From positions 2,852,001 through 2,916,000 of the forward strand of contig JAQGEQ010000380.1 in assembly GCA_034620365.1 (NCBI GenBank): a DNA stretch of 64,000 nucleotides. Direction: 5' to 3'. Below, piece after piece: positions 16,201-64,000 of this stretch (position 1 is the stretch's first letter; each line of letters starts with the position of its first letter). The translations under genes and the position numbers were made by a program. This DNA is from Pegea sp. RAD2-039. Lineage: Eukaryota > Chordata > Thaliacea > Salpida > Salpidae. The notes under the pieces are model-generated. The model saw nothing but the letters and a program-made list of their open reading frames with translations, ran no database searches and was not told where the DNA came from.

Positions 16201-19200
16201 GACTATAAAACTATAAGAAACAAAAAGATAGCGCAAAAAGCAATTCTATCTCACTGACAATTTATTTAAGATGGTTAAGTTTTCTTGTTTACAAAAGTAA
16301 CAACTTTATAGGTTTATCCAATAATTTTTAAAATTCTAAGTTACATAATTTACAAAAAATGTTTTGTGCGTGTAGTTAGTGTGGTATAAACTGATACGCC
16401 CAAAGTAAAAAAAGCTTGTTTAAATGTCTATATTTGATTAAATGTGTTCAGTATTTACAATATCAATCAAAAAAATTAATCAAAAAAATTAATAATTATT
16501 TGAAAACTTATCAAAAAGTGAGATTACGTCATCATAAAAAATTGAAAGTATTACAAAACTACAAAATAGAAATATTTTTAACTGTTAGTAATGTAATGAT
16601 TATTTTCTTATATATATTAGTGTTACGAAACTACATAACGATGCTAAATTTACCATATAATTGCCACCTGAAAATATGTTGTTCTTAAACCTCACTTAGT
16701 TTTAGCTGCAGACTTTAGTTTCTAACAATTTCACTGAAAACTAAATGGAAATGTTTAATTTGCTGGAGTAGTAATCTAGCTTTTCCTTTCAGTTAACTTA
16801 GTTTCAAAACATTTAACAAAAAAGGAAACTTTAAAACAATTCCATTTTTTGTAATTAGTAAAAAATAATTTTATCTAACATCAAATAATATGATAGAATA
16901 ATAGATTTTAATAACTTTTATTACAGTTTTTTAATCTGTTGGTCTCGGTAGAAATCTAATCTGGTTTTAGATATTAGTATTTGACTTAGTCTTTGTCTTA
17001 CTAAAGTTTCAAATCGTGTAACCTTAGTTTATTCAAAATGTGGTTAGTAACAAGTCTATGATGCCTTACTTAAAATCTCTAGTGTTTTTAGGTCTGTACT
17101 TGACTCTTCAATTGAGTTGTTTTACTCTTTTCTGACTTTGCAAAGATTCAAAATTTTTTTTAAAACTGAAAAATTGTTTAATACCCAATTTCATGGTAAT
17201 TTTGAATTTGTTTAATAAGTAGTTTTAGTGAAAATATCAAAACTACTTTATAGGCTTGAATTAAATTGTGTTAAAAAGCTTATAGCTTTCGAAATAAAGG
17301 TTGTTAAATCTCTGGTTTCTTGCTTAAGCATTTAAAATAGTGCCTTTCTTCTTATAAAGTATTTAAGTGCTAACTATTATCTGTGTTAAAAACTGTTTTA
17401 AGTGAATGTTTAATCAGCTTGTTAAAGCTTAAACTGATCTGTAAATTGCTTCTAACACTTAAGAAAACTATTAGTTATGTTAGAGTATGAGTCTAAAAAT
17501 ACATAACTGGGCTTAAATATAGGACTTTTTACATTTATTCGATTTTTTTAAAAAGAGAAGTTATTGTCTATCTTCAACTTAAAAAAATGTTATAAGTGCT
17601 TTATATCTTAAATCATTTGCAGCGTTAAAAAAAACTACTACCAAGCAAACTAATTGAAGGTTTACGCAAGTATTTGATGACTACATGTAAATATCAAAGC
17701 AAATTTTACTTTTTCAATATCTTGAAAAATATTGATAGTCAATTATTGAAAGTGTACTTTACAATTTTATAAAAATAAACGCTTTATGAGTTGAAATCTA
17801 ATATCAAAACAATATTGGTTATTTAGTTATGTTTAAAAGTGTACAGATAGCAAAGAAAACATTGTACTGATTGTCGTTCTAGTATTGCTAGTAAAAAAAA
17901 CATAAAATCGTTTATATACTCATGCGCCTACAACCAGTTTTGTAGAATATACAATAACATGAACGTTTGTTTTTCAAAATCACAGTTTATTGAACAAAAC
18001 TTATTTTGACCCAGTATTTAAAATTCTACTTTTTGTATAAATACGTGAAGTCAATTCTAAAAATAGTTTATAAAATCTGAATTAAGTTATAAACATTTAC
18101 AATTCAACTTTATACATTGCAGTTTATCTGAAGACTTATTTGCAGATTAATTATCAATTTAATAATCAAATTCTAATTAAATTGTTATAAACTTGCTTAT
18201 ATACCATCATTTTTATTGAACTTGGTTTTTATTGAATGAACCACTATTTAACCACTATGGTAATGACTGATGTATGCTTTAAACTGAATTTTTACATTTT
18301 GATTATCAGTGATAACATCAGTAGTAAAACATTTTCTTACTAAATCTACTTTTAGGTTATAAGCGTGAGTTGATTTTGTGATTAATTTATTTGAAATAAG
18401 ACTATAATCTGATCAGATTGAAATTCTTTCATAATTAGTAACAACCCATCTATTGTCTAAGTTCTTACACAAAGTATCTTTTTATTAACCGCAAAATCTG
18501 ATCTTAAAACACAGCTCTTAGCATCTGATTATAAAGTAGTTTTTGATAATGTAAAATGTTGAACTCTGATCTCTAAGCATTTTGTAAGCGCAAAATGCTG
18601 ATTTAACTACACTCTTACTAAAGTTTGTAAAATTTTAATTAACTTCAAATATGAGAAAATTGATAAGCTTAAAAATTTGCATTTTAGAGAGCAATCATTG
18701 ATTACTTATTATAATAGTTAATTAATAACTACTTTATTATCAGTAATTACTACTCTTTCAGCTTGCTTGCTACTAGTGACTGTCTTATGACTCGATGTTA
18801 GTACCAACTGGGTTCTAGCTCACCAAGCAAAATCTTTGTCTAAAAATGTTATCAGAGTTAAGTTGTTTTAACCTAACTTTATTTAACCGAAAAGTTTAAA
18901 AGACTGCTACTAAATTAATTTAACTTATTTTCATTCAAATTTGTTGTCTAATCGAAGTTTTAAACATTTTTTTAGAAATTAAAACTAAACTTGTGCCACT
19001 AAATAGAAACAATATATCAAAGAACTTTCGGTTTATAAATTAAATTTATCTTTTAAAGTTTTCTTTATTTCTCAGTTTTAGAATTTTACCAATTTGAAAA
19101 AAAACTGCTTAATAGTATCTATGACTATAAAAGCGTTAAAAAGTTTTTATTTTTCTGATGCTAAAAATAAAAACACTCAATTTGCTTTATTTATTTTGGC

Positions 19201-22200: not shown

Positions 22201-24370
22201 GAAGTCTGCGAATTTGCAACACTGAGAATTTATTTTTTTTCAATAGCCCGTCATAAGTTACATAATATATGACACAAAACCTTAGAGTATGAAAGAAGAA
22301 GTTTGTTTACACTAAAGGTAAAGTATAATTGTTGATAAAGCTTTATTGAGTTTTTAAACTTGAATTAACATTAGAGTCACAATACATAAGTCAATCCTTT
22401 TTGAAAGAGTAAAATTATCCAAAAAATTTTTATTTATTTTTTTCTATTTAATTTTTTATTAAGAAAAGTTTTATTTTTATTTTTGTTGAACTTTGCTAAC
22501 ATTTGAGAGGTTTTAAAATATATTTCTTTCTTAAACTGTCTACTTTTTTGTTAGCTAAAAATACTCTAAGAGTTTAAAAATTTGTATAGTGTCGCTGAAA
22601 AGCAAGTTAAATATAATGATTAATTATTAACACCTTTCTTTATTTTGCTTAATATGTTAAAAAGGTGTTTTTGAAAAGTTTTTATTTTTTTCAGATACCA
22701 TATAACCGCACTATCTTAATTTAAAACAAAAGTAAATACAAATACGCAACAGATTAGCTAAAAAAGTCAAATATTTCATAACTTTTCTAATACCAGATAC
22801 TCAACTTTAAGTTATTGGTTCAAATTCACAAGTATAATTGTAAGTATGTGTCTGATTACGATTGAAAGATTTAAGCGGTTTGTATTTAGATAATATTTTT
22901 AAAATTTCTATAAAATATTGAAAATGCTTGCAACTATTTAAAGAACCACATTTACTTTCAGTAAGTAAGTTCTATTCAAAGAATAGTTTTTCAGTTTCTT
23001 GATTATATTTCAAAACGTTTTACGGAAATAGATTTTATTAAACTAATAATAAAGTAAAAGTATTTAGTTTTAAAGCTTTTTAAACAAATATTTATCGAAG
23101 CATTCACCCTAATTAAGAAATAATTTACGATTTGAAATACTACATTTTTATCAAAACATGTTGGAAAAAGATTTTCATGTGATAGATAACTTCAAATTTA
23201 TCGTGGGAACGAGAAAAACAGGTTATTTCAAACAGAAATCATATTAGACGCTTTTTACTACCGTACGTTCTACATCTGTCAATAACATTGAAGACTCGTG
23301 CAACTTTATCCCGTGGGTTCTTTTTTTCTACATCTGTTGGAAAGATTTAACTGAATTAGACGCAGTAAAAGCACAAGGCCAAGTTCTCCTGCTGTTATAG
23401 CTATTGGTGACAGGATACAAAATTATTGTGGAAGTTTTAAAGCATAAATTAAAGAATAAAGCGAAGTGATGCGTTTTATGGTTTTAAAGCTTATGGGAAT
23501 GTAAACGAATTTAAATTTTTGCTTTATTGTCACGTTGCTTTTGTCGGAAAGCTTGCAGCTGGTTAAAAGTTTCAGCTTTCAATTCCTCCAACCGTTAAAT
23601 ATTGATGTTACAATTTTGATATGCTGCCCGAGTATTAGAACTTTTTGGAAGTTGGAAGAAAACATTTCTTCCGAAAAGTTCTTTTATAGCTAATGTAGAA
23701 GTAAAAAACGAATCCTATTTTAAACTAAGTCAGCAGAAAGTTTATCAAAAATCTAATATGTAAATTCTTATGTAATGAAATTTCCTATATCTGTTTTGAT
23801 TATTTAAATAATTAAAGTTTATTTTTTGAGCTTTAAAATTCAATAATAAGTAGAAGTAGATGATGTTTTTTCCAATATGTAAGCTCTCATACATATTTCC
23901 TAATATCTTATGCAACCTTTTAGCTTCTGTTGCATAATATTCAGACATAAGTTATTCCATCTAACTTCAACAAACACTTTCTTGACGATCAAAACCATCT
24001 GAGTTATTTTCTTGAAGTTGTTTATGACATATACTTTCCGTGAAACATCGAAGCAGCAGGTGAGTTTTGAATATAGAAAATCAATTTAAAGATTATGTCC
24101 ACTTGTTTAAACTATACTTGATAACTGAGTCTGTGACAGATGTCAATAAAACTGTCAGCTTCATATAATTAACTAAACAAAAATTAGCCATTATGCGTCT
24201 ATTAGTCAGTAACTAAAACCTGTTACATGAAGTTAGAGTTCAAAAGTTTTCATCAACAAACTTTCTTAAGAGCTTTTACATTGAACGGAAATCCTTTATT
24301 TGTTCGGCATACAATTGTTTATAAACTACTGCGCAATAAGTCTAGAAAGAAATGAAAATCGTGGGCTACT
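10214..24370. other. Intergenic, no supportable gene
   Basis: About 14 kb of uniformly AT-rich sequence with homopolymer A/T runs. Open frames here are short, start with rare or no context and have biased K/N/I/F/Y/L composition expected of random AT-rich DNA. I recognise no protein family, RNA gene, terminal repeats or poly-A-tailed insertion. A modestly GC-richer patch near 23200-23420 contains CTACATCTGT twice (about 60 bp apart) but nothing interpretable. Confidence 0.6.
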
Positions 24371-24374
24371 ACTC

Positions 24375-24463
24375 ACCGCAATCACCACACCAGTCTGCGG
24401 TAGGGCGAGAAAGTGACCTTAAGTTAATCCTGACCACATAGATAAATGCGCTTATATTGTGGT
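24375..24463. promoter_or_regulatory. Five RUNX binding motifs in 89 bp, one next to a GATA site
   Basis: Sites in order are ACCGCA (24375), ACCACA (24384), TGCGGT (24396), ACCACA (24433) and TGTGGT (24458). The first three occupy 27 bp in mixed orientations. ACCACA at 24433 is one base from AGATAA at 24440, a RUNX-GATA pairing. In DNA of this composition a six-base site of this type is expected about once in several kilobases, so the clustering is very unlikely to be chance. Confidence 0.6.
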
Positions 24464-24911
24464 TGCTAAGTATTTGGGTTGATAATGCAAAGTTGCAGTT
24501 TTAAAGAACGCAGCAGTGAGCTGTTGCTGCTGTTTCGAATACAGTTTTGTTGTTGGATGAATAAAGAAAGAGAAATGGAAAGGAGAAGACCATTTCGCAC
24601 CAAACACACTTTTATGTCACCCGATCGAAGAGGCGACAGTCGGCCGAGTTGAACTTGAATCTGGCAGTGAAATTATTCATGCGTAACTGCACGCGTCATT
24701 TTCTCTCGCTTCTACCGTCTCCTCATCCTCCCTCTAACCTTCACCAACGAATATACGAAGAGAAGAGTCAGGAGCAAGCTGCAAAGCGTCGCTCTGAAAT
24801 AATTGAAGAGAGAAAAAATAGTGGTTTGTCTGAGAGTTCGGTGAAGACTTTTTCGTACTAACATTGATGTTGGCTTCGCTTATGCTTGAATTTAACGTGT
24901 TGTGGTATACG

Positions 24912-24943
24912 GCTCGCCACAATAGATGCATGTTATGGCGAGC
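24912..24943. repeat. GC-rich 8-bp hairpin in the RUNX-site island
   Basis: GCTCGCCA (24912-24919) is perfectly inverted as TGGCGAGC (24936-24943) around a 16-base loop containing ATGCAT. It lies just after the RUNX site at 24901. It could be a structured 5' leader element if this region is transcribed, or a palindromic protein-binding site. Confidence 0.5.
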
Positions 24944-25069
24944 GAGCAACAAAGGGCAGGGTTTTAGTGTTAGTTTTCATTTAAGTTGTGTGTAAAAATT
25001 GAAATATATTTTTTCTTAGCCTCTAGATGAACTAAATAATTGTGGTTGCGTATTGAAGCGAGGTTAAAG

Positions 25070-26760
25070 GTAAGGTTGGTGGTTCTAAACTGCTAGCTAG
25101 AAAGGAAAGTTTTGAGGGTTTGTGTCATTAGCTTCTTGTTAATAAGATTTTGTAAATTTCGTTTTATTCGAGTTTAAGAGAAATGGGGTTACAGTGGTTT
25201 AGTATTTATTCAAATGAGTTAAAGTAAAAGTTTCAATTTATATTTTAAGAACAATGAAACTTTGTACTTAGTGAAATTGTATTAGTTAAGTGCACGCATC
25301 ATTAGACATTAATTTTTGTTTTTTTATTAAGAATAGAGACCTCAATTTGAGTATTGAGCTTTTAACCACGTGCTTACTTTTAGTAACCTTTAAATTTTGT
25401 GTATAAATTTGGCGAACATGTTATTACGTGATGAATGAAGGCTTACCAGACGCATTGCTTTCAAACCGATGTTTACCGATTTATTTCGAACCCTCGGCTT
25501 CGGTAGAAACACGAGAACGGCCATTTTTCATTCACCATTAAGCTTCATAAATTCGTATTTACGCAATTGGCCAGTCTGTAGTTAGTGGTCTCCTTGTTGT
25601 CTTATTTTTATTTGTCATTACATAAAGTAATTATGATTTTAATAACGGTTAACATTGTTCCTAGTTGTTAATAATTTGACAGATTATTTTTTCAATGAAG
25701 AATATGATGTTATTTGAGTTTATTTACTGTTCAAATATTACAAGAGCAATTAGAAAGAATATGTGATTGATAAATAAAGTTATTAATTAAGACATATTTA
25801 AAACCAGTCGATTAAAAATTGGTCGTAGATTTAAAGTCTGATATACAGTTTTATGTTGATATCTGTTAGAATTGATTTTTATCAAATAACTCTAAATTTT
25901 AACTCAAGAAAAAATAGTTGAAAAAAACTTGATTTTAAAACATCTCTACAAAGCTTCTGTCTATTTACTTGAAATATTATGCTAGAATTTTATAACCAAG
26001 TTTCGTTCTTTGTTTCTAGCGTAACCTTTGTACAGAGTAAAGAAATTTAAAATTTGATTTTAGCTAAGCTAGATAAAGTCCTTTAATTTGAAGCTTTATG
26101 ATTTGCTTCAGTGAATGATATCATTTTTTACTGTAAAGTCAACATCAGAAAAATAGTTTCTTAATGTGGGAATAAAAGTTACTAAATTACAAATTCGCAC
26201 TAAAAGGAACTTCACTACTAGAAAAAAAACTTGATAATGAGTTTAGAAGACAGTTTTTAATATTTTTTGAATTTAGAATCTCTTCAAAGCTTCAATTTCA
26301 ATATTATTACAGAGGGCGTTTTAATTTAATAGTGTTTTAAAGAAAACTTATCATAATTTGCTTTTTATGGAGTAAACAAACATGTATACAGCAAAGAATT
26401 ATGTTAAATTATAAAAAAATGAAAATAAATGCTTTTTAAGTTTACGAACAGGTTCATGTTATAATAATAATTGCATAATAATATTCAATCCAATTTCTAA
26501 ATGAAAGTATTTTTTGTCAATTGAAATATCTATTTAGTATTCAAAGCTGTTCTTTTATTTTCTTTTCTCGGCGAGCCATTTATATGAAAGTAAAATTAAA
26601 AGTTTAGTCACGTATTTAGAGGTGCAAGCATTTTCGTACAAACAAAATACAATTTTTATTTCAATTTGACTTATTGAAATTCCATCATGTTGAAAAAAAA
26701 CTTTTGTCTAAAGAAACAAAACTAAACTTGAAAGATTTGTATCAAGCAAAAAGTCTCCCT
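25070..26760. other. Non-coding stretch, one GC-richer patch
   Basis: Mostly AT-rich. From about 25430 to 25600 there is a patch with raised GC and CpG, including a forkhead-like TGTTTAC (near 25471) and two ACCGAT motifs close together. It may be a regulatory element tied to the island just upstream. No coding frame or repeat is recognised. Confidence 0.4.
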
Positions 26761-26898
26761 TGAAAATTGTTGGATACTGTTGATGCAGCATGGTACAAAC
26801 GGCGTGCGCTGAAAGAAAAAGAGGAAAAAGAGAAAAAAGCCAAAAAAGGGGGAAGAGCTGATGGTAGTAGAGGTAAATGGTTGGTTCCGCGTCGTTAA
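26761..26898 (+). other. Orphan coding-like fragment, K/E-rich, unidentified
   Basis: A frame open from just after a stop at about 26760 to a TAA near 26896 reads AAWYKRRALKEKEEKEKK, then a basic and Gly-rich tail ending KWLVPRR. The composition (Trp, many Arg/Glu/Ala, GC-rich codons) differs from random AT-rich frames nearby. TGCAG at 26780-26784 and GAG|GTAAAT near 26870 could bound an internal exon, but a second frame over the same bases is also open, and there is no ATG in this one. I recognise no family. It could be a stray exon, a processed pseudogene scrap, or purine-rich regulatory DNA. Confidence 0.25.
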
Positions 26899-29800
26899 AC
26901 ACGTCATAGCACAAAATTGCGCTGTTTTAAGTATCTCATTCGGTTCGTACGCATTTTTTCAAGTGTACTAGACATTGTAAATTGAGTTGCTACTGAAATT
27001 ACTGCGTTCAGTCACATAAGTAAAAATCTTTTGACAATTTTAGAACTGCAAGGCTTACAAGCACACACAAACAAACTCTTTACACTGGTCAAGCGAGTTT
27101 ACAGAAGTAATTAATGTCATTTAAGTTTAGTTTGAAATGAAAAAAAGTCAGGTGATAATCTAACACAAGCTGACCAATAGCGTAAATTTCATAAATCTTA
27201 AAGTTTACAAATTTCATTGAAATAAATACAACTCTAATTTAATCAGTTATTTACTAAACAATTTTTTAGTGGTTAATTGAATACATTTTTGTGAAATAAA
27301 ATTATATTTATTTTTATTTGGAAATAGATTTTGGGTTTATGAAAAAACTTCAGGCTTAACACGTTGGCTTATGCTTTAAAATGTTGAATGAAATCAAATA
27401 CCATTGATGTTTACATTGCCTAAAATCATAAAAATATTTTCTTTTACAAAATTATCTGACACAAATTTTTGTTATGCTGTTATCCAACACTTGAAGTGAA
27501 ATATTTGAATCTATTTAAACTTTTATTTATAATCAATGAATTATTCAATTTTCAAATCTTTATAATAAATCTATTTTTGTTTAATGTTTTAGCTTGTGGG
27601 AAAAAATTCTTCAATATTTTGTTGGAATTAACCAATATAAACTGATAAGTAAGGAATTCTCAGCAATTAATAATTTAATTTTGGTTATAAAATTGTAAAA
27701 AGTTAAGAAATTTTTATATAGAATAAGTTTTATAAACTATTTAGTAAAAGTTTTTTAGAGATAGTCTATATAAAACAATTCTAAAAATTAATCATTTCAT
27801 TAAAACTTATATAATAGCAAACTCGCAAAAAACACAACATACTAAACTTCGTTCTCTAAAATAGGAGAGAGTAGTTTTGTAAAAACCTTAGGATGAGACA
27901 GACTCATGTAAGAGGAAGAAAAAGGAGTGGCTTGTGAGGCTACTGATAATAACTGACATTCTCAAGTTCAATATTGTCTATCAGAGAATTGTTTAAAACT
28001 CAGCTTTATTAATTAACAAACTAAACCATTTAATTGTAGACTTTAAATACTTTTATAACAATTTTAAAAATACTTTTTTTTTCGGTGTGTTAAAAGCAAA
28101 AGAAACATGGCTTCAGTTTAAAATTTGAATTTTTCTAGGAACTTTTTCTAAGTTTTGTTTTGGCGGTTACTATGTAGGAAAACTATTTGAATATCTATTA
28201 CGTCATCTTGTTTAACTACTTCTATTTTACTTAAAAATATCTTTTTTCGGCTAATATCAACTTTACTTGAAGCTAACCTTTCGATATTTCAGCATTTGAT
28301 AAACTTGTCAATTTATTATTGAAATAAATTGCATAACATTTTTTTTGTAAATATTGAAAATTTACTTTTAATCATCAAATATTTTCAAATGCTAGTAAGA
28401 TTTTATTTTAATTCTTATAAAATAAAATTTATCTAATTAGCTAAAAGCTTTTTCAAAAAAATTCAACTGGTAGTGAGTATTGCTATTTTTCACAAAGAAA
28501 AACGGTAAATATTGAGAAAATAGCTTTTGAATAACATTTGGAACTACTAAAATTTTCAGATTAAGTCGAATAAAGGCTCTATTTAAAAATTTATTTTGGG
28601 GAAATACTATCAACGGATGCAAACTAAACAAGAGCTGCTTATAAAAATATTTGATGGATTCTGCTGCTTAAATTGTTTTGTTTTAATCGTAAATTTTATT
28701 TAAATATTTCAGCTTCTGTTGAGAATAACTCGGTTTTGTTGTTTTATTTAAAAGGTATTATTTAATTTTATCTTGCATTTTGTCTAAAATACCAGCAACA
28801 TTTTTACAAGAAAGCATTTGTTACAAATTATTACAGGTTGTAGCAATCTGTAGAAAAACATTTAAAAGATTTAACTTTTTTTTTAGCTTTTTATGCTTTC
28901 TATTCTTGAGAAAATCAGTGATAATACAGATAAATTAGTTTTTTAAGGTGACCTCTATTAGATTAGATTTTATAAAAGATTTTCAGCCTATATATCAAGT
29001 TTTATGTATATAGAAGTATACTTAAGAATATTACCAGAATAATTAAAACATACTTCAGAAAAGAGTTGGAATTTATTTGAAAAGCTTCTAGATTTTAAAA
29101 GCTGTTAACAATTTATATTCTGATTCAAAGTTTTCAAAATGACGTTTATATTTTAGTGGAAGATAATGCTTCTATTGTGAGAACTTTAAAGTAGTTTGGA
29201 AAGAAAAAAACTTTATTTACTGGTTGCATTTATAGCTGAAATTTTTGAAATGCATACAAATACTGCTTGTTAAATACAGCAGAAATATTTGCACACATAA
29301 CTCAAAAATATTTTCACTAAAGTATTTTGATAAAAATGATTAAATGATTTTTAATTTAAAATATATGATTTTTCGGGTTAATCTGTTTAAGTTAAAATAA
29401 GGAGAACTAAATACGCAAATGTACTTTGCATCAAAATCATAATTTATTTTTTTATTTATTTTTTATTTTATCTATTTTTTTTAATTACTTTTTTATCAAA
29501 TGCAAATTTATAATTTTACGATGATGCTAGTTAGTTAGTTTTTATCAATTAAGTTATAAGTTATGTTATATAAAATTAGTAATATAAGTTAAAAAAACTT
29601 TAGTGAAGTTATCATTAATAATTAGTTACAACTGTTTTTGCTCGTCATAGGATGTAGTACTTTACATTATCTATTTAACATCATCAGTAATATATCAAGA
29701 CTAGCATAATATATTTTAAATTTATAAAAAATTTCTTATAAAATTTATTTTGAATTGATTATTAATATCTAGAAAGTTTGTTTATCCCATTTAATAACAA

Positions 29801-32440
29801 TAACACATCAACAGTTGTCTAAGGTCAGACACGTTCATTTAATTACATAGCAATTAACTATCCCTTTAACTACGATGCCATCTTTAGTATAAGAAGATTT
29901 CAATAAGGTTGTCGATTTCAATAATTCATTTTGGCATGTTTGCACACACTGCTAGAAAAACCATTGGTTTGATAAAAAATAAAATTTAGTTCTTCAAAAT
30001 TTCATAACATTGCTTTCATTATTATGATTACTTTTATCATAATATTATTTATTTTTAATAGTTGTTTTAATTATAAAGATTAAATAAGAATTAACTTAAA
30101 TTCTTTAGCCTTTTCTTCAATTTGCAAAGTAACTTTTCTTAATTTGAAAGAAAATTTTAAGTTTAACTTGAAAATCGATTTTACTATAGTAACAACAAGT
30201 AACAACATTCGATTATTTGTATAACTCTAATCTTAAAACACATGTGACACTGGTATAATACTGTAGAATTACTCTTAAATTATTTGTTTAAATTATGTTA
30301 TGATATAGAAAATTGAGTAAAACGATTTAAAGTTAAGTAGCAAAACAGCTTCATTGATAAAAACCAGCTACTTTCAAATGTTAAGTTTGTCTCTATACTG
30401 TCATGATGACTATGAGTTTACAGAACAGTACACATTTTGTCATTGTAAGCAAAAATGTGTGACATACATCGATCTAAAAATCGATTTCTTCGAATATAAG
30501 CTTCTGCGTTTTGTAACTGAAACCACATCCAGTAAAGAAGCCGCTAATCATTTATAAGCTTTACCATTAGAAATAACTTAAGAAGTGACAGTAGCATTTA
30601 GGCTACTAGTGAATTGTAGTCTAAAGTTAAACGTTGTAAATAAAAAAATCATATTACTTCGACTTTACACGATTATTGTATTATGAGAGTTGTAGAAATA
30701 AAGTGGGTTTAGATACGAAAGTATTTTATTAAAATAAATTTTTTTTTAGTTATGAAAATGTAGAATGGTAACTTATGAATGCATTGAAAATTTTTAAACA
30801 TTTTTGTATTAAAAACTTGAAAGATTAATTTCTTTTGAAGAATGAAATATTTATGGCTTTCTTCTTACACTATTTTAGCGGTACAAATGCCATTTATCAG
30901 CTATTGTTTATAGATAAGCTGTTTTATTTTCTATTTGTAACTACAAATTATGGCATGCCATGATTGTAATCGATATAAAACTACTACAGATACCTTCAAA
31001 TTTATTGACGGTGAAAATCCAACAAATTGTTTAAATATGTTTCTTAAACAACAATAAATTTTGTTGTTGTTTCTCAATATACTAAGTTCAAATGAACTCT
31101 TATCTTTACAATACAAATATGATGGTAGAATGGTTTCTTAAAATCCAAGAAATGCTTCTGTTAAATTTATCAAAAAAGTCTTTTAGTTTTATGTACATGT
31201 AGATACATTCTTGATAAGAACAGTTCAACAATTTTACATTACGAGATTAAATTACTTGCAATATTTTTTTCGAAAACTAAATTTGAAAATAGTATCAAAT
31301 AATTCAAATAATCTGCATAATTTTGTAGCCAGTATAAACAAGAACTTTATTATTGCTTTAATTTTTTACACATCGGTAATATCTATTTTGATTTTTAATT
31401 TTTATCAGAAGTTTACTTGTCTACTTTATTTAGTTCTTAAGTTGAAAAAACTGCTTACGGAAGTTTATATTTTGACTGAAAAACATGATATTGTAACAGA
31501 AAAATGCAATTTGTGAAATGAATTAATTTTTAAAGCAATTTTACTTACAGCTGTTAGATGCTTAAAACCATTCAACCATAACTCCATATATTAGCTATAA
31601 AAACTCAGAAAAAAAACTTGCTTTTATAGGTAGCAAAGCAAAAAAAGCAAAACAAATTTTTAAGCTTAACTCCGAAATTTTCATACTAGTTTAAAAATCA
31701 AATATCATATTTCATAAATAAAAACACAACTATAAGATTACTTTACTTAAATGTTTGTTGTAACTTAATCTCAACTTTAAGTATTTTTAGATTAACAAAT
31801 CAGTTTTGGGTCTTAATTTCATTTCAAAGTAAATTTTGAAGGATGTATACTCCTCAACTGATATAAAAGTCTACATGTTTTCTCTTATTGCAAGGTTAAA
31901 TGTAAACATGTCTCTAGAGGTCCTATTAGTGGAGTTAAACCATATTACATGTTAATTTTAATGATTGAATTTCTTCATTAATCATATATAGTTATCTCAA
32001 TTCTCATAACCTTAATCAGGTCTTTGAGAAAAAAAAAATTGTGAAAAAATGTTTATTTGAGTTATTCTGAAAGAAAATTTTTAATTTCTGCTTTGTAAAG
32101 TAATTTGAAATAATTTCAAGTTTTCTATTAAAATAAAACTTTTTTTTATAATAGTTTAGATTCTCTATAAATTACATCAAAATAGTTTTATGATAAAATT
32201 AAGTTGAAATTAAAAAAAGTGAAAATGAATGATTTCATAAGAATTATATATTTTAATTCAATAAACATAATATCTATTATAATTATAAGTTTCATTCAAA
32301 GCTTATATATGTAAAAAATACACCGATGAAGTTAAGAATACAAGTTCAACACTATAACTCAAAGTTTTTATTAAGTAAACTTCTACTATATTTAGTTTTA
32401 ACACCACGCTAAAACAAGCTCATATATTAGGGCAGTTTGC
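26899..32440. other. Non-coding stretch, nothing recognised
   Basis: AT-rich DNA. A patch near 27840-27960 has somewhat higher GC and a small TTCTCT...AGAGA inverted repeat. Another near 30400-30560 contains two ATCGAT palindromes within 20 bp and one ACCACA. Simple T/A-rich low complexity is prominent at 29440-29480. No gene or mobile element is supportable. Confidence 0.55.
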
Positions 32441-45299: not shown

Positions 45300-47810
45300 A
45301 TGTCTGCAAATGATGTTTAAGAATTTCTATAAAATCATTCTACTAGCACTAAAAACACAATTGATAAACTTCTTTTTACAAGATTTGCTGTTAAAAAATT
45401 TCAGTTTTGTACAACAGTTTCTCCTTCTCTCAATTTTAATCTAAAACTTTAAAACAGTATCTGCCATGGTTTGTTTTGAAATCAGATTAAGGCTGTTAAG
45501 ACTTCGACTTTTAGATAAATTTTCATCAAGGTTATAAATATGACGAAGGCTCGCATAATAAGCTACTGTATACCATCATGTTGTTAAGTTGTAATATTTA
45601 AACTATTTATACATTATCTTTAAAAAATATTAAGCCTTGAATTGAAAAAATTTACCAAAAGTTTGTTTGATAAACAGCTGAATGTGGTTTATCTTCTCTT
45701 GAAAATTGCTTTTTGTAGTTTTGATTTAAAAAAAGTTATTATTAAAGAAGTCACACAAGTTAAGCAACACGAAAGCGTTAGTTATGTAAAAACTATTTTA
45801 AGATTTTCTTATTTTTAGAAAATATTATTTTTCAACATAGCTAAAGTTTAAACTGAGACAAATTTATTTTGTTTTTGTTGGAAAATTAGATAGCATCATT
45901 TATCTAAACTAAATAAATAAACAAATAAAAAAGTCTTTTGTGTTATAAGCTATATATATTTTTAATAAGATAGCAGCAAAGTAAACTCTCAGCTTTAGAT
46001 TATTATAGTAACTTATACTGCTAAGTATTTGTGAAAAACTTTGATGGGCTTATTTAATAACAACATTTTTAGGTTTTACTTGACTTAATATAGATAATTC
46101 TTCAACTTTTAAGAGTTTACACTGTTGGTTTAAGATGTAGAGCTATTTTTTTCAGTTTAACGCAATATTACTGACAAAACCGGTCTTTTAAACATAATGT
46201 CTAACCCGCATGTATATTCCTTTTTTCTTAGTTAGCTCCTTGAACCTTCTCTATTATGTAGTTAGTTTCTCGTTTGCGAATGAAATACTATCTCTCTACA
46301 GAGAGTAGCCTAGATACTGATAGATTAATTTGATGTTTATTAAATAGTAATGTTTGATGGATAAGCCTTCAAAGGAAATCAGAATAGCTTTCTAGTTTAC
46401 TATTAGCCTCGCAAATATCAAAAATTATTTTTGTTACCAAAGTTAAAACCTGTTAACTAGTAGCCAACGTAAAAATCTGTTAGCTACAGCCACATTGTAT
46501 GAAAACTTCCTTTACAGTTTTAAATTGGTTGGAATTAGAATTTAAGCAATTAAATGACTTTGGTAATTGAGATGTTAAGCTGATAAAACAAAAATAAAAA
46601 ATAAGTTTTTTTGCTACTACCTAACTCTAACGAGTAAAAAAAAGTTTGAAGAAAAGAAAAAGAAGATAGTATTACGAAAAGAAGAAAAAGTTGCTCAGTC
46701 AGAATTGAGGTGTAATTATATAGTTGTTTTTATCTGTTATATAAGGTACATCTGCCCGAAGGCAAATTAAAACAATTGACAGCAGCAGTATCAGCTTGTT
46801 AGAAAGTTTTTTTAAACACCTAAGGTGTTTGTACCACAAGTAATTTTTCAAACGCCAGATTAGTGGTGCTGTAACTACAGCTATTTGGTTTCACAGTAAA
46901 CCATGTTTTATTTTTATATCAGTGGACTGTAAAAGCAGAGAAAGTTAGTTGAGGTAAACCCACTATTATACAATGATCTTGTAAGCTTTGAGATGTTAGT
47001 TTTCAACTGGTATCCAAAAAGAACAAATTTTTACTTAATTTTTTTGCTCTACTAGTTAATTCTATATCTATTGGGAAAAAATACTTGCTAAATTTTATAA
47101 TAGTATTGGAACAGTTTTCTTCAAAGTGAGTTTGTCGAAAGCAAACCAATTTCTCTGGTCTATATGTGTCAAATTTTGTTATCTCTAATCATTCTGAAAA
47201 TAGTTTCAAGTATTAAGTAAAGTACGAGATGAAACTATAAAAGTCTGTATAATGCTATTACGAGTTTTTATGGCAAAATTATTTCTGGGTGCTTAATACA
47301 AGCAGCTTAAGTATAGAGAAGCGGTGTAAGTTTTAGGCATAAACAAACAAGCTCTTATAAATCAACCAAAAAGAAAAAAAAACTCATGATAAACGTTCAA
47401 TTTTTTTGACTCAAATATATTTGCTAAACAAATATGTGTTGGTAAACCACTTTCTTTAGTAGGAAAAAAAGAAAACTTGATTATGACAATAGTGTAGTAG
47501 CTTACAGAATCAATTTATTCTCTAGAAAATATTATAACTCTTATTTTTTCTGTTTCATATTTAAGTCACTTTTAGTCGCGAAAGTTATTTTGAATATTTT
47601 TTTGGTAAACCAGTTCCAACTTTTAGAACAAAACTTTCTCATGGTATAGGTAAACAAAATTAACAAGGGTGTTTTCTAGTTGCTTTTTAAAAATTGTTTA
47701 ACTTTTTTACATGTTAGAAGGTTTTCCATTCGCAGTATAACCTAATAAATAATTTAAACTTTGAATTTTTTCTATTTTAAAACGGAAATGTAGTAATTGA
47801 TATAATTTCT
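45300..47810. other. Non-coding stretch upstream of RUNX
   Basis: AT-rich DNA with small self-complementary words only (for example CTCTCT-AC-AGAGAG near 46296-46309 and GCTGTA-AC-TACAGC near 46868). No coding sequence, RNA gene or mobile element is recognised. Confidence 0.5.
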
Positions 47811-47831
47811 TTTTGCAGGTCAGTTATAGGG

Positions 47832-47882
47832 CCATATTTGGTGTATATAGGTTTTAGGGTAAATTGTAAGATTCAACACCTG
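47832..47882. promoter_or_regulatory. CArG box and E-box upstream of RUNX coding start
   Basis: CCATATTTGG (47832-47841) is a perfect CC(A/T)6GG CArG box, the SRF recognition sequence. TATATAG follows at 47844-47850 and CACCTG (an E-box) at 47877-47882. They lie about 300 bp before the ATG of the first visible RUNX exon and upstream of its probable splice acceptor, so they would be either promoter-proximal or intronic. Confidence 0.35.
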
Positions 47883-48133
47883 TTGCTTTGAGCAGAGCGA
47901 ATATTTGATTTTATAATTCAGTCCGATTGAAGCAGAATTACTCAACACACAGCAAATAAACCTGAAGTGAATAATTTGGTTCAAGTCCGGATACCTGCAT
48001 TTACTAAAGTCAGCATCAAACGCTTCAAAGCTTGGTAAATTTGTTGATAAATTTTGAAATTATTTATGATTTTAGCGTAACAAATTTACGAAAATTTTTT
48101 GGTATAAGCGTTACAAACCTTATAACTTTATTG

Positions 48134-48161
48134 TACTGACAAAGATCTATTCAAAATACAG
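48134..48161 (+). promoter_or_regulatory. Branch point and splice acceptor before RUNX exon carrying the ATG
   Basis: TACTGAC (48134-48140), a near-ideal branch-point sequence, is followed 21 nt later by ATACAG ending at 48161. The ATG lies 15 nt further on. This suggests the first coding exon is spliced to a non-coding or alternative 5' exon upstream, for example the island ending at 25069. Confidence 0.45.
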
Positions 48162-48176
48162 TGAAAATTAAAAAAA

Positions 48177-61386
<13,210 letters not shown>

Positions 61387-64000
61387 GTTTGTACTTCCTT
61401 AATTTCTATTTTAAAAGAAAGGTTTCAAGATGTAAGAAAAGAGAAAGTTTTTTTAGATATTAAACTACCCTTCAAGATTATTTTAGGAGTTGAAACATTA
61501 AACTTGTTAGTTCTTCATCATCATCTATTCTTTTATCAAAAAATATATTGTTCTTGATAATAAGTAGTTGATAGGTTTGAGAATCAATTAAAATGTCTTC
61601 GTATCTTCACAAATCTTTTTATCTCAGCTCGTGATAACAAGCCATCTAAATATATATTAGATATCTATGCATGTAAACTTGCAATTGCTTTCAATGTTAA
61701 TTTTGTATTTAGCTGTGAAATTAATTCAAGCTTCTTAAACAATTTGATGCTGATTTTTTAAAGCTTTTAAAACAGATTTTTTGTTTCGAATTAAGTCTAA
61801 TCGAAGTAAAGTAATTGTTTTCAGATACTTCTGATACTTTCGATGTGTAATCCTAAATTTAATTAAATCATCAGCGACTAATAACAAAATTGAATTAAAC
61901 TTGAGCTCAAATTTAAAATGATTCTTTTAATGATGACTATTTCCTGTTAATGAAATTAAAGTTTGAAATTCAAACATTTTCATTTTAAATCATTCTATTC
62001 AACTGGTGTATTTTCGTAAAGTTTTCCACTGAATAGTTTTCCACCGATTTCCCTGAAATTAATTTGTTGTAATTTATTCTCTATATGTAGAGTTTGCTTG
62101 AATTTATAGTAGAAACTCTAGCCAGATTAATTACTTTTTTTTCACAAAAGTTAAACTTTCAAACAAACATTTTTTTATTTGTAAATATTTTTAACTTTTA
62201 TTTAAATTAAAAAAAGATTTTTACAATTTATAAATTTACTTTGTAATGTTGTATTAGAAAAATTTCTTTTTTCTTCTTTCCTTTACTCTGTTGTAGCATT
62301 AAGAGATGAATATAGAAGTATTAACATTGGATTATTCTTCCTTTCTTAATCAGGCTTGCTTCCATTATCATTCATAGCCAAGTAACCACTGTAGGTTATT
62401 AACTAAATCCCACGTGCCTACACTTTTCATTTAACATACAAGCCAAACTTACTTCTTATACCTTTAAGTGATAAACCTAAAGTCTACTGGGTATAATTCA
62501 CTTAGAACTCGGCTCAATATGAGCTTAGTAGAGTCACTGATATATTTTGCATAAATTATTTTAGCTGATGCTCTTAGCCACAAGAGAAAATGGTTTCTGA
62601 CCATTATACGTAACAAAAAATCATATGTTAGCTTGATTCCAATATCTTAATTATTTATTATAAAATTTACCTTTTAAAGTTCTCCTTATATTGTAATTTG
62701 AAAAATATATTTTAGTTAGTATTTTCTAAATATTCGCCCAAAATAAAAGTTAAACTTTAAATTCTGCTCAAAGAAACTGAATAAACGAGAATAAGTAAAC
62801 TTAAAGTTTTATGGAACAAATCAGTATTAGTTTTCAACTTTATTGTAAAATTATTAAGGCTGTAAAGTTACCTGATGTTTTTGAAGTATACAGATAATTT
62901 GAAATATTCAAGAACCCACCAAAAAAGTGATATTTATTCATTTATTAAATCAAATAAAGTACCATCGCTCAACTACACACTATCGATATATCATCGTTTA
63001 AAATAAATACTGTAGTAATTTTATAATTTATGCAATTACTATAAAATTCTCTACTGCCAGATAATTATTGAATGTTTGATACTCCTAACTTTTAACTCAA
63101 AGATGATTTAGTTTTCGTATAAATTAAACTCTCACAACTTGACTAAATAATTGGCGCTATTAAAAAATATATTTGTTCCAATGAATTGTGTAGGTGTGTA
63201 TATATAGAATAGGTTAGCCGCATAAAAGGCCGACCAAAAAATATTGTATATGTGGTTTCAGTCTAAAGTAGTTTGAAAAGGTTGAGAATTTTAGTGTAAA
63301 GTAAATAGCAATAACCAATGTTATCATTAATTGCTTTTTTATAGTTCAATTTATTCCATAATTTCCTAATAAAGACAAAGTTTGTGTCTTAAGCAAAATC
63401 GCTTTATGAAAGAAAAATTTTACCAAGTATTCTGCTTTTAAAATCTTTTTTCAACAAAGATTTATATTAACCATTTCTTATGTAACCAATAATTTTCATA
63501 AAGTGATTGATTACTTGCTGATATTTTATAATTTAATCGCTGCAGTTATTAATCAAAAGCGATGTTCGTAAAAAACTCGTAAGATTTTATTGAAATAAAT
63601 TGAACTGAAGAAACCATCGTCCATCACTCTTCTGTTCTTGAGAACCAGGGTGAAACTAACAGATAGAAATACATAAGAAAATTGCACAAGCGAAAAGAAG
63701 AATTAGCGTTAATCACAGAGTCCCTTATGACTTAATAGTATATTCTAGTACTTTCAGGTGCTATAACTTTTTAATTTGTGCTAATTTAACAGTTTTGGAG
63801 ACTTTTGCAAAGGTTAAATGATAAGAACAAAAAACTTATTTTACATTCAGAATATTGAAGCGTTAAATGTTTGACACAAACTCAAATTCTGATTGATATT
63901 TTTATAAGCTAATAAAATAAGTGATCACTTCAAGATACTTCAAATGCTGTCAACATCTTGATTCAAACTGACAGAGCAAAAACAAGTCAATTCCACATCA
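61387..64000. other. RUNX downstream intron, gene not finished
   Basis: AT-rich, no further coding exon supported. A patch at 62340-62640 is less AT-rich and holds an E-box CACGTG (62411-62416) and a POU-like TTTGCAT (62546-62552). Another at 63190-63260 has AGGTGTG (T-box-like), TATATATAG and TGTGGT (63251-63256). They may be regulatory; none is certain. Confidence 0.5.

Follow-up and report, generated by a model that had tools for sequence, protein, structure and literature searches.

The window analyzed here, a stretch of 64,000 nucleotides, comes from an AT-rich genome of 105.7 Mb (15 sampled loci average 28% GC) and carries a RUNX gene. Pfam Runt matched three exons at window positions 48264 to 49740 and had no other matches in the genome. 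The joined Runt domain aligned with structurally solved RUNX1 (entry 4l0y) at 3.7e-64, with GRSGRGKSF and a second stretch of 14 residues unchanged, and its third exon has the 105-bp length given for that Runt exon in deuterostomes and Nematostella (PMC2527000). The exons placed within the window are as follows.

47819..48378, plus strand: predicted RUNX leader and first coding exon, with the ATG at 48177
48865..49020, plus strand: RUNX Runt-domain exon (Pfam Runt)
49631..49735, plus strand: third RUNX Runt-domain exon, 105 bp (Pfam Runt)
50210..50308, plus strand: probable downstream RUNX exon, placed from frame and splice signals, with no Pfam match
58980..59143, plus strand: probable downstream proline-rich RUNX exon, with no Pfam match

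About 3.9 kb beyond the window, a frame ends in EDVWRPY (L019). We take this exon to be the C-terminal end of RUNX and infer that it is joined to the gene; with that attachment, both the Runt domain and the C-terminal VWRPY expected of a RUNX family member were found. VWRPY recruits Groucho. CBF-beta had a single match in the genome. Based on the single RUNX, its conserved Runt domain and VWRPY end, and the one CBF-beta, we conclude that a reader of RUNX sites exists in this organism. A first-pass annotation of the window had called it non-vertebrate DNA with a RUNX gene downstream of a cluster of RUNX sites. The Runt matches bear out the gene, which has its ATG (48177) 23.7 kb past the cluster on the downstream side, and the non-vertebrate label rests on single matches for RUNX and CBF-beta in the 105.7-Mb genome. 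Gnathostomes have three RUNX genes (PMC4236176), and the single gene here speaks for an invertebrate.

The gene upstream of the window encodes otubain (L018; Pfam Peptidase_C65, 4e-21; OTUB1). The plus-strand gene that follows at 1 to 10 kb and ends at about 10 kb matched calpain (5.6e-8) and, with a score under the cutoff, IQ; we take it to be androglobin. Seven other frames of 1 to 10 kb, including one minus-strand frame, were searched in Pfam and gave nothing that passed the thresholds applied. Within the interval from there to RUNX at 48 kb lies a GC-rich island with seven TGYGGT words, one of which adjoins a GATA-type word.

24300..25100, no strand: GC-rich island; 300-bp windows spanning 24200-25099 have a GC of 0.37-0.45, and the window as a whole has 0.265
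24375..24380, minus strand: RUNX site 1, TGCGGTg, doubling as a strong minus-strand splice donor (GCG/GTGAGT; the slash marks the predicted exon border)
24384..24389, minus strand: RUNX site 2, TGTGGTg, starting 9 bp from site 1
24396..24401, plus strand: RUNX site 3, TGCGGTa, doubling as a plus-strand donor (24400, score 11.1)
24433..24438, minus strand: RUNX site 4, TGTGGTc, matching PuACCPuCA
24440..24445, plus strand: WGATAR (GATA-type) word adjoining site 4, a word of frequent chance occurrence in AT-rich DNA
24458..24463, plus strand: RUNX site 5, TGTGGTt, matching PuACCPuCA
24901..24906, plus strand: RUNX site 6, TGTGGTa
25041..25046, plus strand: RUNX site 7, TGTGGTt, matching PuACCPuCA and ending 23 bases short of a predicted donor at 25070

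The counts first reported for TGYGGT proved exact, with three in 27 bp, five in 89 bp (24375-24463), and seven in 672 bp (24375-25046). The accompanying background of one site per several kilobases was about right, as we measured one per 2 to 3 kb. The sampled loci, which take in the CBF-beta locus and both 10-kb flanks of the window, hold 55 sites in 143,489 bases across 15 loci, with a maximum of two per 89 bp. Base composition was considered as well: 200-bp bins with a GC of at least 0.35 (14 loci) hold 14 sites in 24.6 kb, or 0.5 to 0.6 per kb, and the island holds 7 in 0.8 kb. The remainder of the 38-kb interval has 15 sites in 37.3 kb, or 0.40 per kb, which equals the genome background.

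The cluster is not a product of chance. When positions 24300-25100 were shuffled, none of 5,000 replicates reached seven sites, three in 27 bp, or five in 89 bp; for 24201-25200, the 27-bp figure was 0.0002. When the full 64,000 nucleotides were shuffled within blocks of 1 kb, none of 300 replicates had four sites in 89 bp and one had three. The window total, 32 sites against 19.1 expected, was reached in 0 of 100 shuffles. We also compared one-degenerate 6-mer classes, tabulated up to 199 copies in the window. TGYGGT alone among the 2,408 classes with 10 to 39 copies gets at least four in 89 bp, and among all classes with fewer than 60 copies one other, TYCTCA, gets five. Four in 89 bp were reached by 12 of 727 classes with 60 to 99 copies, whereas among 684 classes with 100 to 199 copies, 82 reach four and 3 reach five. 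With no motif preset, TGYGGT ranked first for enrichment in island 24300-25100 among 6,144 degenerate 6-mer classes (7 versus 0.58; Poisson, 2.6e-6, or about 0.016 after multiplication by 6,144, under a null cruder than the shuffles). Poisson estimates for the whole genome put clusters of five in 89 bp at about 0.002 to 0.05 occurrences and triples in 27 bp at 1 to 10, so the triple by itself is unremarkable genome-wide.

The quality of the individual sites varies. The RUNX consensus is given as RCCRCA in one source (PMC2527000) and as Pu/TACCPuCA in another (PMC4236176). Three of the seven sites (24433, 24458, and 25041) match PuACCPuCA, and five match the looser Pu/TACCPuCA, the two extra ones (24396 and 24901) having A at the seventh place. 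Sites 1 and 2 carry G at that place and do not match Pu/TACCPuCA; they stand in tandem in the same orientation with starts 9 bp apart, a spacing that is the local repetition in the island. We looked for TGTGGTTT among the seven sites and found it at none. Sites 1 to 3 lie in CACC-like sequence without a PuACCPuCA match, and we take them to resemble T-box or KLF words. These words could accordingly be read by another factor, as a T-box, KLF, or similar element, or could be a functionless accident, but we consider this quite unlikely. Enrichment peaks at the RUNX word itself, three of the seven sites fit the consensus, and the Poisson expectation for such clusters argues against accident.

We surveyed the interval for genes that the island might serve. 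The open reading frame survey, which detects frames of 45 codons or more if their composition is coding-like and misses shorter exons, listed from 10.1 to 48.1 kb just four island frames and the minus-strand frame 26745-26894. The Pfam search covered the plus-strand island frames 24565-24858, 24470-24646, and 24834-24989 and found no match for them; the further frames are 24737-24976 and 26745-26894 on the minus strand, as well as 16395-16688 and 31187-31516, which are long but lack coding-like composition. Rfam, searched with the window at gathering score, gave no match, and the tRNA search was likewise negative. Because the survey shows few frames and the three searched have no family match, the island most plausibly serves RUNX, with a non-coding gene or a gene of short exons as further possibilities. 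RUNX sites in excess of chance were found in what we infer to be DNA of the RUNX locus, since no other coding gene was found in the interval.

Other origins of the island itself were considered and rejected. A repeat was dismissed because a DNA search, which skips simple repeats, placed the island DNA only once in the genome and no tandem array is listed there, a coding gene because the three plus-strand frames were searched without a family match, and an RNA gene because of the Rfam and tRNA results. Elsewhere in the interval, patches at 25400-25599 and 26800-27099 have a GC of about 0.4 and a CpG observed/expected ratio of 1.1 to 1.5, contain no TGYGGT, and are possible further regulatory elements.

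The strongest plus-strand splice signals of the interval were located with a donor matrix of generic weights rather than weights trained on this genome, and they fall at the island and just ahead of the RUNX start codon.

24060..24065, plus strand: predicted splice donor CAG/GTGAGT, the best plus-strand score in 10-48 kb (14.6), 240 bp before the island
25070..25075, plus strand: predicted splice donor AAG/GTAAGG, the second-best plus-strand score in the interval (12.3), at the downstream end of the island
47805..47818, plus strand: predicted splice acceptor TTTCTTTTTGCAG/G, the best plus-strand acceptor of the interval (12.3)

This acceptor would open an exon whose first base, 47819, precedes the RUNX ATG (48177) by 358 bp, and no other plus-strand acceptor between 10 and 58 kb scores at least 11. 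Ahead of the RUNX donor at 50309, the plus-strand donors that score at least 12 are 24060 and 25070 only, and the third best of 10-48 kb is 24400 (11.1), which overlaps RUNX site 3. Donors of at least 12 number 17 in 280,000 sampled strand-bases; the two strands of 24000-25100 together hold 3. In a test devised after the region was seen, three such donors in 24000-25100 were reached in 1 of 2,000 shuffles (P = 0.0005) and two on the plus strand gave a P of 0.013. At a score of at least 12, one strand of the 38 kb has two donors versus approximately 2.3 expected and one acceptor versus approximately 2.9 expected. The number of strong signals is thus ordinary, and only their places speak. The CAG/GTGAGT form recurs at 50309 (14.6), the predicted end of a RUNX exon. 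The other RUNX junctions are weak (donors 4.8 to 7.8, acceptors 2.1 to 6.7, with one acceptor left out), so a strong splice score is no requirement in this gene. The donor after the RUNX exon end at 48378 (48379) has the weak form AAG/GTTTGT; the same form occurs at 61387, where another RUNX exon may end.

The third strong donor, on the minus strand at 24376 (GCG/GTGAGT, 12.9), sits at the left edge of the island and would suit a RUNX-bound element that drives another transcript, such as a non-coding RNA, perhaps leftward from the island. We regard such a transcript as improbable, given that the donor overlaps RUNX site 1 and may owe its score to that overlap, that the window has neither an Rfam match at gathering score nor a tRNA, and that three island frames lack family matches, although these searches would miss a non-coding RNA of a new kind.

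The places of the plus-strand signals and the low ATG count of the leader together suggest a distal first exon, non-coding and located at the island, which would be joined to the leader of RUNX by splicing. For an exon ending at 25069, no ATG is open to the donor in any of the three frames, so the exon would be non-coding, which fits the requirement for the ATG at 48177. For an exon ending at 24059, one ATG (24024) is open to the donor, but its frame, as judged by eye, runs into a stop downstream of 47819, within the leader. The leader itself (47820-48176) contains one ATG versus about 5 to 7 expected, and one or none occurs in 2.4% of interval stretches of the same size. The island (24350-25069) has 13 ATG versus 14.5 expected; since ATG is not depleted there, a long leader across the island is improbable. 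A shorter exon, for example 24940-25069, would be lean in ATG (1 versus 3.4 expected). On the plus strand, 23900-25100 contains one TATAWA word (24320) and two TCAKTY words.

An island without ATG depletion and without a clear core promoter also suits a RUNX-bound distal enhancer that loops to a proximal promoter near 47.8-48.1 kb. Such an enhancer shares the evidence of site enrichment, and the GC/CpG patches near 25.4 and 26.8 kb would suit a spread-out regulatory region. It has, however, no need of the interval's strongest plus-strand donors at the island, and we consider it possible but somewhat unlikely.

We tentatively favor, at a little short of an even chance, a cis-regulatory element of RUNX itself, with the island working as a distal promoter. 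RUNX together with CBF-beta would bind the close-set TGYGGT sites of the 24.3- to 25.1-kb island, and transcription would start within the island. The bound RUNX would alter the rate of these starts and so feed back on its own transcription. The first exon, predicted to be non-coding, would extend to 25069 (to 24059 given a start further upstream) and would be spliced over approximately 22.7 kb to the exon from 47819, just ahead of the start codon. Close-set sites could give a steep response to the RUNX level. Given the apparent presence of VWRPY, self-repression via Groucho is as open as self-activation, and either sign of the feedback would be compatible with the gene. Autoregulation of RUNX, as proposed in the first-pass annotation, is a reading that fits the significance of the cluster, the failure of the survey to find another coding gene in the interval, the intact Runt domain with its CBF-beta, and the predicted splice signals to the leader.

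The annotation had also drawn a parallel with vertebrate distal promoters, which turned out to be looser than claimed. The P1 promoters of gnathostome RUNX1, RUNX2, and RUNX3 lie upstream across a very large intron, carry several RUNX sites, and are presumed to be auto- or cross-regulated (PMC4236176, PMC3974841, PMC5648507), and the element predicted here has multiple sites like them and would resemble them in its position across a long predicted intron. Gnathostome P1 promoters have one conserved tandem pair of (Pu/T)ACCPuCA in the 5'UTR (PMC4236176 and PMC3974841), whereas five sites in 89 bp and two more, in mixed orientation, occur here, with three of seven matching PuACCPuCA and five of seven Pu/TACCPuCA. 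Lamprey P1 promoters are described as having no tandem pair (PMC4236176), and RUNX1 P1 with tandem RUNX sites is said to have arisen later, presumably in ancestral vertebrates (PMC5648507). Like the island, here a predicted distal promoter, the distal promoter P1 of lamprey RunxB has several single RUNX sites; its three sites are dispersed (-506, -282, and +131; PMC4236176) and far less dense than those here. Gnathostome P1 encodes its own N-terminus (PMC4236176), unlike the first exon predicted here, which would be non-coding and would supply no distinct N-terminus in frame. Because of the missing coding first exon and the differing site layout, we do not file the island as a P1 promoter, though it may work like one.

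Self-regulation of RUNX in a non-vertebrate, to which the first annotation had drawn attention, is no novelty in itself. Drosophila Lozenge and the GATA factor Serpent activate an autoregulatory loop on lz (PMC6366919). The present locus is like lozenge in that an invertebrate RUNX would be under its own product and in the GATA-type word beside site 4; the parallel rests on the summary of fly work in PMC6366919. Our searches of the open PMC literature, which say little on subscription journals, turned up no invertebrate RUNX gene with a distal cluster of RUNX sites. A dense RUNX cluster in a predicted distal promoter outside vertebrates would be a new layout. We consider it rather unlikely that non-vertebrate RUNX genes, too, are driven by RUNX from a distal promoter followed by a long first intron. 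If true, the two-promoter, self-feeding layout of RUNX1 to RUNX3 would be older than ancestral vertebrates or would have been invented twice. A single invertebrate RUNX with such a cluster makes the age of self-regulation and of the two-promoter layout directly testable.

According to PMC4236176, RUNX and SUPT3H are neighbors at gnathostome RUNX2 and in amphioxus, Nematostella, and Amphimedon. Our search with the TFIID-18 family did not show this linkage within the RUNX contig (C6); the two TFIID-18/SPT3 family matches lie on other contigs, at C20:341871-342140 (L020) and C11:462351-462602 (L021).
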